A stretch of 64,000 nucleotides of DNA from Phytoactinopolyspora mesophila (lineage in GTDB: Bacteria; Actinomycetota; Actinomycetes; Jiangellales; Jiangellaceae). A program made the translations under genes and the position numbers. This document shows, piece by piece, positions 10,719 to 14,137 of this stretch; the stretch's first letter is position 1; every line of letters starts with the position of its first letter. Below the pieces are notes generated by a model, which made no database searches, was not told the DNA's origin, and saw only the letters and a list, made by a program, of their open reading frames with translations. The stretch spans positions 248,001-312,000 of the forward strand of contig NZ_WLZY01000008.1 of NCBI RefSeq assembly GCF_010122465.1, read 5' to 3'.

Positions 10719-11327
10719 ATGCGCCTTGATCCAGCACCAGTAACGCCCGAGGACGTCGAGCTTGCGGGCACAATTGTCATCGACGCACTGGCCGGCAGCG
10801 TTGAAGCCGATTGGTCTCTGTCCGCGGGCGGGCTCAGCTGGTCGTGCTGGGCCACGCTGGCGCACGTGTGCGATTGCCTGATCAGTTACACCGGCCAGCT
10901 CGCCGACCGGGCCGAGACGGACTACGTCCCTTTCGTGGTGCGGGTGAAGGAGTCGGCCTCGCCCGCGGGTCTGCTGCGGGTGGTGCGGGTCGCCGCCGGC
11001 TTGCTGGCGGCGGTCTGCCGCAGCACACCCGAGGATGTCCGCGCTTATCATCCCAGCGGGATGGCAGATCCCGAAGGCTTCGCCGCGATGGGTGTGGCCG
11101 AGCTTCTCGTCCACGGCAACGACGTCGCGCACGGCCTCGGGGTGTCATTCCACGTCGAGCCCGGCCTGGCCAGCAGAGTTCTCGCCCGGTTGTTCCCCCG
11201 CACCGCGATCGCCGACGACGACCCCTGGCAGGTCCTGCTGTGGGCGCACGGCCGGATCAGGCTGCCGGGCCGGGTTCAAGCCAACGGCTGGACGTGGACC
11301 GGAGCCCCCATCGGCGAACGCGACTGA
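10719..11327 (+). CDS. DinB / maleylpyruvate isomerase-like protein
   Basis: A 202-residue four-helix-bundle protein of the DinB/maleylpyruvate isomerase N-domain superfamily, whose better-known members are mycothiol-dependent. Visible pieces are the first helix TIVIDALAGSVEADWSL, LSWSCWATLAHVCDCLISY (with the usual metal-binding His) and GVAELLVHGNDVAHGLG (the second His motif HGxDxA). The protein ends in WTWTGAPIGERD. The genome encodes MshB, so mycothiol is available. Start ATG 10719 was chosen because residues before it do not resemble the family. It is monocistronic and is followed by the sigma-factor gene after 103 bp. The reaction is unknown. Confidence 0.7.
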   Translation: MRLDPAPVTPEDVELAGTIVIDALAGSVEADWSLSAGGLSWSCWATLAHVCDCLISYTGQLADRAETDYVPFVVRVKESASPAGLLRVVRVAAGLLAAVCRSTPEDVRAYHPSGMADPEGFAAMGVAELLVHGNDVAHGLGVSFHVEPGLASRVLARLFPRTAIADDDPWQVLLWAHGRIRLPGRVQANGWTWTGAPIGERD

Positions 11328-11430
11328 CGCGCCCGGCACTCACCTGACCAGCTGCGGAGTTCCTCACCCGAGGTCTGTCGGCTCCGCGTACGGCTGGCAT
11401 CTGATAGGAAAGAATGGGACATTACTATCG

Positions 11431-12069
11431 ATGAGTGTGGTCGAGCACGGGATGACCGCGCACGATCCCAGCGACGAGCAGCTGTGGACGCGTGCGCGTC
11501 TAGGCGATCCCGCCGCTTTCGGCGATCTGTTCACCCGGCACGCCGGCACCGTGTACTCATTCTGTTTCCGCCTCACAGCCAGCTGGCACACCGCCGAAGA
11601 CCTCACCACCGTCGTGTTCCTGGAGGCGTGGCGCCGCCGGCATGAGCCCAACGGCAAGCCCGGGACTCTCGTACCCTGGCTGCTGGGCATCGCCTCACAC
11701 GTGGCCCGGCACAGCACGCGAGCGGTACGCCGGCATCGCAAGCTTCTCGCCAAGCTGCCACCAGCGGTCATCGAAAGTGATCAAGGGGCCAGCCAGGCCG
11801 CACGCGCCGAGACCGAGAAGCAGATGAAAGAAATCCTGCAGGTCTTTCGGCGGTTGCCACACCGTGAGCAAGAAGTCCTGGCGCTGTGTGTCTGGGGCGA
11901 GCGCACCACCGCCGAGGCTGCCATCGCACTCGGCATTCCGGTGGGGACAGCCCGCTCCAGACTCGCCCGGGCGCACGAACATCTGCGCCGGCTGATGGAG
12001 AACTCTCACAACGGCCGGGCACATCCGCGACCGGCGGTATCCGCCAGGCCACCTAGGGAGGCAACGTAA
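11431..12069 (+). CDS. ECF RNA polymerase sigma factor
   Basis: A 212-residue sigma-70 family ECF protein. Region 2 is LFTRHAGTVYSFCFRLTAS with TAEDLTTVVFLEAW. Region 4 is LPHREQEVLALCVWGE with a helix-turn-helix TAEAAIALGIPVGTARSRL. There is no SnoaL-type C-terminal extension. The start is uncertain: ATG 11431, the in-frame GTG 11437, or ATG 11452. A TACTAT hexamer at 11423-11428 is 8 nt before GTG 11437, which would favour a leaderless start there. The membrane protein that follows after 3 bp is its likely regulator. Confidence 0.87.
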   Translation: MSVVEHGMTAHDPSDEQLWTRARLGDPAAFGDLFTRHAGTVYSFCFRLTASWHTAEDLTTVVFLEAWRRRHEPNGKPGTLVPWLLGIASHVARHSTRAVRRHRKLLAKLPPAVIESDQGASQAARAETEKQMKEILQVFRRLPHREQEVLALCVWGERTTAEAAIALGIPVGTARSRLARAHEHLRRLMENSHNGRAHPRPAVSARPPREAT

Positions 12070-12072
12070 GGC

Positions 12073-13182
12073 ATGAGTTCGACGATGCTTCGGCTCAACT
12101 CGTTCGAGTCGCCGCCGGACGGCTTTCCTCCTGATCGTGAACACGCTGTGCGCCGCCTGCTCGAATCGGTGGTGCGTGAGACGCACGAGGCCGAACTCCG
12201 GGGAAACCGGAGCCGGCGGCCGCGGAAACGTCCCAGCCTCCCTGTCATTCGCCTGGGGCTGGCCACCGCCACCGCGGTCGTCCTGATGGTCGTGTCGTTG
12301 GGCCTGGCCGGGGTGTTGCGCCCGGATGCGGGCGTCGCACATGCCGCCACACCCACGCTGGTGGGCCACGAGACCAGCACCGGGGAACCCGCTGCCGACG
12401 TGCTCCGCGACCTCGCCGGGCGGGCGGCGGGCACGCCGTCCACGAGCGGTGACGACACGATCCGCACCGAACGCTGGTCTCTCGCGATCACCGCCGACGG
12501 CGGCAACGCCGCGGCCGGCGACGAGGGCGCGGGCGCCGATACCGAAGGCGCGGCCGGCCAAGAGGGCCCAGCCAGCCCGGCCACCACCACAGTGACCACC
12601 GCGATCATCCCGGTTCAGCGGGAGATGACCCGTCTCGACGACGGCAGCGTGTCGGTCCGCGAGGTCGGCGGTGAGCCGCAGTTCCCCAACGACGCGTACC
12701 GCCGGGCGTGGGACGACGAAGGCCGGCCCGGCCCGCACGGCGCGGTGCTCAGGGACGAGATCCTGCCGCCCGGGCAGTATCACCTGACCTATCCGGCGGA
12801 CCTACCCACGGAGCCAGCACTGCTGCAGGAGACGCTCGCGACCGAGCAGCCCGACGCGCGACACGACACCGGCGCCTTGTTCCTCGCCATTCACCAGCTC
12901 CGCAATGAACAGGTTCCCAGCGGTGAGGTCCAAGCCGGACTGCTGGAACTGCTGGCCGAGCGGGCCGATGTCGTCACTCTGGGTCAGACCACGGACCGCG
13001 CCGGGCGCGAGGCCGTCGCGATCGCGACCAACAGCACCGACTCTGGCTGGCCGCTCCGGTTCATCCTGCTGATCGACCCGGACGACGGCCACATCCTCGG
13101 CTACGAACAGGTGCTCACCGGGGACGTCGCGCACGTCGATGTCGCTGCGCCCGCCGTCATCGACTACACGCTGTTCCACTGA
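12073..13182 (+). CDS. Membrane-anchored sigma-factor partner (CU044_5270-like)
   Basis: A 369-residue single-pass membrane protein: a basic cytosolic N-terminus (about 1-58), one hydrophobic helix near 59-82 (LGLATATAVVLMVVSLGLAG) and a large extracytoplasmic part with an Ala/Gly/acidic linker (about 140-180). It resembles the CU044_5270 family found next to ECF sigma genes in Actinobacteria. The HxxxCxxC zinc motif of classical anti-sigma domains is absent from the N-terminus. ATG 12073 is 3 bp after the sigma-factor stop, so the two are one operon. An anti-sigma or signal-receiving role follows from position only. Confidence 0.72.
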   Translation: MSSTMLRLNSFESPPDGFPPDREHAVRRLLESVVRETHEAELRGNRSRRPRKRPSLPVIRLGLATATAVVLMVVSLGLAGVLRPDAGVAHAATPTLVGHETSTGEPAADVLRDLAGRAAGTPSTSGDDTIRTERWSLAITADGGNAAAGDEGAGADTEGAAGQEGPASPATTTVTTAIIPVQREMTRLDDGSVSVREVGGEPQFPNDAYRRAWDDEGRPGPHGAVLRDEILPPGQYHLTYPADLPTEPALLQETLATEQPDARHDTGALFLAIHQLRNEQVPSGEVQAGLLELLAERADVVTLGQTTDRAGREAVAIATNSTDSGWPLRFILLIDPDDGHILGYEQVLTGDVAHVDVAAPAVIDYTLFH

Positions 13183-13210: not shown

Positions 13211-13696
13211 TCAGGCGCCGCGTAGGCGGCGGGCGCTTTCCCCGTTGGCTTCGGCCAGATCGTCGAGGAGTTCGGTCAGGGCCTCGATCTGTTCGGAGTC
13301 TCTCCCAGCCAGGGCGGCTGTGGCCGCCTCGGCCACCGGTTCCCAGATCTCGCGGCGCCTGCGGCGGTGGCGGTCGGAGGTGGCGATCGTGCGGGCGCGT
13401 CGGTCGGGGCCCTCGGTGCGGGTGATGTAACCGGCTCGTTCGAGCCGGTCGAGGATCTTGGTGATGGCGGCGGGGCTCAAGCCGCTGGTTTCGGCGAGTG
13501 AACTGGGCCGGGTCGGGCCCTCGCGTTCGAGGATCTCCAGACAGCGCAGGTCGTTACGGTTGATGCCGTATTGCTCGGCGGCGGCGTCGAACAGCGCCTC
13601 GGTAGCCGCGTGCAGGCGGCGGGTCGCCCGTAGCGCGGCCTCCTCGGCTCGCGTCCGGCCGTTCGACCCACTTGTTTCACGTCGCGTATTATTCAC
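13211..13696 (-). CDS. MarR-family transcriptional regulator
   Basis: A 161-residue winged-helix repressor-type protein. Helix-turn-helix and wing are RPSSLAETSGLSPAAITKIL, DRLERAGYITRTEG and DRRARTIA. GTG 13696 is the only plausible start (VNNTRRETSGSNGR); further upstream the frame has no family resemblance. TATAAT at 13704-13709 is 7 nt before this GTG and there is no Shine-Dalgarno, so the transcript is probably leaderless. The start codon lies 3 bp from the start codon of the divergent membrane-protein gene, and an imperfect palindrome covers both. Autorepression and control of that neighbour are likely but inferred. Confidence 0.88.
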   Translation of the reverse strand: MNNTRRETSGSNGRTRAEEAALRATRRLHAATEALFDAAAEQYGINRNDLRCLEILEREGPTRPSSLAETSGLSPAAITKILDRLERAGYITRTEGPDRRARTIATSDRHRRRRREIWEPVAEAATAALAGRDSEQIEALTELLDDLAEANGESARRLRGA

Positions 13697-13709
13697 CCCG
13701 TGAATTATA
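13687..13709. promoter_or_regulatory. Overlapping divergent leaderless promoters and putative operator
   Basis: On the plus strand TATTAT (13687-13692) is 7 nt before GTG 13700. On the minus strand TATAAT (13704-13709) is 7 nt before GTG 13696. The two start codons are separated by CCC only. ATTATTCAC and GTGAATTAT form an inverted repeat with 8 of 9 bases matching, centred on the gap, as expected for a MarR dimer site. The -35 regions are weak. Confidence 0.65.
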
Positions 13710-14137
13710 CTGCCGCTCAGATCGCCCCTGTCCGCCCGTGCCGCTGGGCCCTCGCAGGCGCGACCGCTTATGTCCTGTGGGGCATGCTCCACCTGGGCCT
13801 GGGGGTCTCCATGGTGGCCCGCGCGCTCAGCGGCGGCCTGCCGTCGGGCGAGCTGGAGTCCGAGAGCCTGATGTTCTTCGTGTGTGCTTCGGTGTTCGGC
13901 GCGCAGGCGATCGCGGTCGGACTGGTCCTCAACCGGGTGAACGACCGCTTCGGCTACTGGCTCAACCTGCTCACACTCGGCGTGATCGACACGGCGTTCG
14001 TGGCGTTCATGGTCGTTCCCGGCCACGTCGATCCGGTCGGCGGACTGTCAGGGCCGCTGGTCTGGGTAGCTGCTGCGGTCGCCTCCACGATCGCCCTGTC
14101 TCGCTCGTCGTCTGCGGCCCCGCACAATGAGACTTGA
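13700..14137 (+). CDS. Small integral membrane protein
   Basis: A 145-residue protein with four predicted membrane helices (about residues 17-38, 52-74, 84-106 and 114-135). It resembles uncharacterised DoxX/DUF-type four-helix membrane proteins, but I cannot place it in a named family with confidence. GTG 13700 has TATTAT 7 nt upstream and no ribosome-binding site. It is divergent from, and shares a control region with, the MarR gene, so it is the probable target of that repressor. Function unknown; an efflux or stress-related membrane role would suit a MarR target but is only a guess. Confidence 0.72.
   Translation: MNYTAAQIAPVRPCRWALAGATAYVLWGMLHLGLGVSMVARALSGGLPSGELESESLMFFVCASVFGAQAIAVGLVLNRVNDRFGYWLNLLTLGVIDTAFVAFMVVPGHVDPVGGLSGPLVWVAAAVASTIALSRSSSAAPHNET

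Follow-up and report, generated by a model that had tools for sequence, protein, structure and literature searches.

How can two divergent genes be transcribed, translated and regulated when their start codons lie only three bases apart? The question is raised by a locus in the window, the 64,000-nucleotide stretch of Phytoactinopolyspora mesophila DNA analysed here, where two genes are encoded divergently:

13211..13696, minus strand: MarR-family regulator gene, 161 aa, GTG start at 13696 (Pfam PF01047, E 3.2e-14)
13700..14137, plus strand: small membrane-protein gene, 145 aa, GTG start (four predicted helices; 27 homologues aligned)

The first product is firmly a member of the MarR family: its PF01047 winged-helix domain scores above the gathering cut-off and its profile matches solved MarR chains (e.g., 2nyx, Rv1404). 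The second gave no family match in Pfam or NCBIfam and no significant Foldseek match against the PDB; its AlphaFold model has four long helices (pLDDT 84), and Pfam matches among its family members are weak and scattered. The pair has the look of a self-contained cassette, since the genes on either side are unrelated (past the end of marR, one for a CU044_5270-like protein; past the membrane-protein gene, one for an inhibitor-I36-domain protein) and neighbours differ among relatives, with no conserved context. Within 11035-13182 of the window, an ECF-type sigma factor gene (inside 11035-12069) precedes the gene for the CU044_5270-like protein (12073-13182), both on one strand.

Both genes look leaderless

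A direct read of the plus strand at 13687-13709 gives TATTAT-T-CAC-CCC-GTG-A-ATTATA. The MarR GTG is the complement of 13694-13696, its first base being 13696 on the minus strand; the spacer CCC occupies 13697-13699, and the membrane-protein GTG is 13700-13702 on the plus strand. A first, sequence-only reading of this DNA had placed the two start codons and the gap correctly to the base. It had also proposed -10 hexamers (TATAAT and TATTAT) 7 nt upstream of the starts and within the other gene, and these too were confirmed by direct read: both TANNNT boxes stand exactly 7 nt from their own GTG, each inside the opposite gene.

13687..13692, plus strand: predicted membrane-protein -10 box, TATTAT, its TANNNT columns invariant across the aligned MarR-paired loci (13 aligned directly, L027 after a 1-base offset)
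13704..13709, minus strand: predicted marR -10 box, TATAAT, 7 nt from the GTG at 13696
13700, plus strand: predicted membrane-protein transcription start, first base of the GTG, 7 nt past the TANNNT, no Shine-Dalgarno
13696, minus strand: predicted marR transcription start, first base of the GTG, 7 nt past the TATAAT, no Shine-Dalgarno, sole in-frame start

The box at 13687-13692 would thus serve a start at 13700 and the box at 13709-13704 a start at 13696, each -10 lying beyond the opposite start. Motif and spacing are those of actinobacterial -10 elements: in Mycobacterium tuberculosis, TANNNT -10 elements are centred 7-12 bp upstream of transcription starts, there is no -35 consensus, and transcription starts at a purine after C (PMC3898074). 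The predicted plus-strand start at 13700 is a purine after C, matching the mapped preference in that species (PMC3898074), and no -35 consensus is recognisable in the alignment of 14 loci described below. No Shine-Dalgarno sequence was found before either GTG. A downstream translation start, named at the outset as a possible refutation, was looked for: no other in-frame ATG, GTG or TTG is usable for either gene, and there is none between the MarR GTG and helix 1. Given the 7-nt spacing and the lack of Shine-Dalgarno sequences and of other starts, both genes look leaderless, as had been suggested, with mRNA 5' ends predicted at or within a few bases of the GTG.

TANNNT has a density of about 0.0015 per base per strand in the window, and shuffles of the window gave 0.00 expected matches to the two-sided pattern TANNNT-N-CAN-N3-RTG-N-ANNNTA. 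With two real opposing starts, the pattern occurs once in the 6.5-Mb genome, at this locus. We rejected the idea of a general class of compact pairs in actinobacteria: the strict pattern was found at five places in 395 genomes of the class, the window included, which is fewer than the reversed control gave, and the four others are not divergent gene pairs.

A predicted tandem operator spans both starts

The membrane protein proved rare in searches that covered the genome collection as well as the family and class to which the window belongs and three other families. A divergent marR adjoins its gene in 14 loci, including the window, from several actinobacterial orders (Glycomyces, Nonomuraea and Qaidamihabitans among the genera). 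Homologues with no marR neighbour come mostly from the family sample around Qaidamihabitans.

The 14 loci were aligned on the membrane-gene GTG and profiled for dyad symmetry (5+3+5) over 600 positions. Peaks stand at -2 (4.43 of 5 pairs), -10 (3.71) and -18 (3.64), over a background of 1.46 (s.d. 0.39). The conserved motif is TWCAC-N3-GTGWA, present twice with centres 16 bp apart, which makes four half-sites every 8 bp (TTCAC-GTGTA-TTCAC-GTGAA); the peak at -10 is the everted junction between the two palindromes, P1 and P2. By information content per column, the conserved block extends from -27 to +7, with an outer T at -27 and an A at +7 in 13 of the 14 loci and flanks near background.

13673..13707: entire conserved block of the predicted operator, one half-site per 8 bp, with the membrane-protein -10 at its centre
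13676..13688: operator palindrome P1, TTCACGTCGCGTA, within the first MarR codons (dyad peak at -18)
13692..13704: operator palindrome P2, TTCACCCCGTGAA, its half-sites being both start codons (top dyad peak, at -2)

The GTGTA half-site of P1 is retained in 13/14 loci; P2 is degenerate in L019 and L027, while P1 alone persists there. The neighbouring MarR very probably uses this block as its operator, a prediction that follows from the block's absence from membrane-protein homologues without a MarR neighbour and from the specificity of the tandem pattern, whose three matches in 278 genomes are all at marR/membrane-protein loci (none in the reversed control). There is no evidence of a wider regulon, as TWCAC-N3-GTGWA has four sites in the genome, fewer than the nine of the reversed control. 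Elsewhere in the same genome, a MarR-like gene (L044, about position 1500; G000:C6:261490-261502) carries a perfect TACAC-N3-GTGTA at its likely start and points away from a gene for a luciferase-like monooxygenase, in what may be a comparable placing of an operator at the start.

These data revise the single palindromic MarR site of the sequence-only reading. A probable operator does cover both starts, but it consists of two palindromes in tandem, spaced 16 bp centre to centre, of which P1 had been missed. The 9-bp arms proposed there are complementary at 8 of 9 positions, and extended arms (GTATTATTCAC/GTGAATTATAC) at 10 of 11. The outer TAT/ATA, taken to be part of the palindrome, is instead the pair of -10 boxes and does not belong to the operator core, because its right-hand copy is lost where the MarR promoter moves.

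The predicted operator, promoters and start codons share the same bases. Both GTG start codons come from P2, as its GTGAA half-sites read outward on either strand: the starts are only three bases apart because two halves of one predicted site serve as both start codons, and the GTGAA half-site makes the second residue Asn or Lys (codon AAN) where translation begins at its GTG. Between P1 and P2, the junction GTGTANNNTTCAC forms the predicted membrane-protein -10. Since the TANNNT and the GTG of this gene both coincide with operator half-sites, their conservation alone is no proof of promoter or start function. The marR -10 lies mostly outside the operator core; its TANNNT is at the exact place in five of the 14 loci (the window, L006, L008, L021 and L009), and the remaining loci lack it or have it displaced by 3 nt. 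In these five, the third codon of the membrane-protein gene encodes Tyr, His, His, Asp and Tyr, respectively, yet always ends in AT and is followed by A, and among synonymous pairs in the window the NAT codon is used in only 14-24% of cases. That AT+A is kept despite the amino-acid changes, with a minority codon, argues for a DNA-level constraint on the marR -10 independent of the operator core.

Promoter geometry varies among relatives

The predicted doubly leaderless, face-to-face form is limited to one clade, consisting of the window, two Glycomyces loci and L021, and requires a single change on the membrane-protein tree, where these four group with L033, which has no marR (91/92 support). 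In L003, L030 and L031, the marR start has shifted leftward, to about 35-39 nt from the membrane-gene GTG, and has a TANNNT of its own 6-7 nt upstream, a back-to-back geometry. Five loci (L005, L007, L024, L040 and L019) have a marR with a Shine-Dalgarno-like leader (in L007, by inspection, AAGGTGG before an ATG), and in L024 and L040 the membrane-gene start is also downstream. The marR start is downstream in L009 and L027, with no clear Shine-Dalgarno, and L006 and L008 have an in-frame ATG for MarR upstream. Altogether, at least one gene is outside the face-to-face leaderless form in 10 of the 14 loci. These departures, the degenerate P2 of L019 and L027 and the lack of a recognisable -35 box weigh against the reading preferred below. 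The operator is therefore the constant element and promoter geometry the variable one, as relatives keep the former while gene starts and promoters shift.

Two further loci, L004 (G005) and L039 (G1007), hold only remnants of marR and the membrane gene, fused or overlapping, as if deletions had taken both 5' ends plus the shared promoter region. A distant homologue of the membrane protein (30% identity) is found on the Klebsiella aerogenes conjugative plasmid pC9_001 (L051, 2950-3387), beside a gene for a LysR regulator, not a MarR.

We lean slightly toward a regulatory element whose GTGAA half-site works on either strand as repressor contact, start of transcription and start codon at once, kept as a unit in one clade across several actinobacterial orders, with relatives rebuilding their promoters (face-to-face, back-to-back or with Shine-Dalgarno leaders) round the same operator.

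A probable autoregulated switch

Judging from the sequence, the locus is probably an autoregulated MarR switch that packs its operator, a pair of promoters and a pair of start codons into about 35 bp and in which two dimers repress both genes. In the mechanism that we infer, two MarR dimers would bind the tandem operator at P1 and P2, covering both -10 boxes and both transcription starts, and would thereby shut off marR itself and the membrane-protein gene. A ligand would release MarR, and polymerase could then load on either promoter, one at a time; both mRNAs would begin at or near the GTG and be translated leaderless. The promoter geometry suggests steric exclusion: polymerase should occupy either promoter but not both, because each -10 lies just past the start of the other. 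The face-to-face overlap thus supports, by inference, the earlier suggestion that two polymerases could not start together. At overlapping divergent promoters of E. coli, competition was seen only when one direction was strongly active, with little at basal activity (PMC12825309). Exclusion may therefore have little effect at basal levels. The description of the locus as a compact bidirectional switch holds in that the promoters overlap face to face and the operator covers both starts, but exclusion need not make it bistable.

MarR might instead control the membrane-protein promoter alone, with marR transcribed from inside the membrane-protein gene on a longer leader and the minus-strand TATAAT incidental. 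The left -10 is indeed invariant while the marR -10 is at its exact place in 5/14 loci, and in L003, L030 and L031 marR relies on another -10, placed more to the left. We nevertheless consider this unlikely, because the window's TATAAT is perfect and perfectly spaced, its GTG has no Shine-Dalgarno and no other in-frame start, and the AT-ending codons are kept, in the same clade, despite amino-acid change. Marginally less probable still is a directional toggle, in which MarR would not repress jointly and binding at one site would favour transcription one way. Here the pseudo-dyad of the operator is centred on the membrane-protein -10, and the persistence of P1 where P2 decays (L019, L027) suggests that the two sites may differ in role; however, a dimer that covers a -10 box and the start of transcription normally keeps polymerase out, and repression is the mode of action of most MarR proteins characterised so far (PMC5401885).

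In the transcriptome of M. tuberculosis, divergent promoters often lie in close juxtaposition (PMC3898074), and the arrangement could on that account be a coincidence, a short divergent gap with a chance AT-rich palindrome. We regard this as very improbable: the block is kept in 14 loci, distant relatives included, where chance would not have preserved it, the two-sided pattern is unique in the genome and the tandem motif is specific.

If the preferred reading, joint repression from a shared operator, holds, the locus shows how translation without a leader allows one set of bases to be operator, promoter and start codon, and for two genes at once. The relatives offer a natural series, with the same operator and changing geometry, for the evolution of divergent promoters, and the same series bears on whether face-to-face overlap alters regulation or noise. 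The pair also brings out a four-helix membrane-protein family that is apparently MarR-controlled and has no assigned function in Pfam or NCBIfam searches.

Relation to known divergent promoters

In the bioA/bioBFCD locus of E. coli, one palindromic operator overlaps both promoters. Unlike here, the mRNAs carry leaders, neither gene of the pair encodes the regulator and the start codons are not known to belong to the operator. This BirA-regulated locus has two divergent units with face-to-face promoters (PMC3494674), the term being that of Beck and Warren; the same layout is predicted for ours.

The pseudo-symmetric bidirectional promoters of E. coli described by Warman, Grainger and colleagues, such as PacrA/acrR, also combine overlapping promoters, a repressor with a target membrane gene, and steric exclusion (PMC12825309). 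That type has one shared -10, and its starts flank this element or fall inside it, with common spacings of 10, 18 or 23 bp (PMC12825309), whereas here separate predicted -10 boxes lie outside the starts, which are 4 bp apart. A shared -10 of the E. coli type was rejected for our locus, as its two boxes are 11 bp apart with no base in common.

The regulator of the M. tuberculosis pair prpD (Rv1130)/Rv1129c belongs to a family other than MarR. This pair is a divergent regulator and target with both mRNAs leaderless (PMC3898074), as predicted for ours; we found no description of operator-supplied start codons or facing promoters for it. Closest in regulator type is CrtR/crtE of Corynebacterium glutamicum, an autorepressing MarR-type regulator divergent from its target, with a crtR reported to be leaderless and an operator that overlaps the target promoter; unlike here, about 200 bp separate the two genes, the crtE mRNA begins with a leader of 114 nt and the operator is away from the start codons (PMC5401885).

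In a partial literature search, we found no description of operator half-sites serving as start codons of both genes of a divergent leaderless pair. Face-to-face promoters (bioA/bioB), leaderless divergent pairs (prpD/Rv1129c) and MarR autorepression (CrtR) are all already known, so that the design reported here is very compact and conserved, but not wholly unprecedented.
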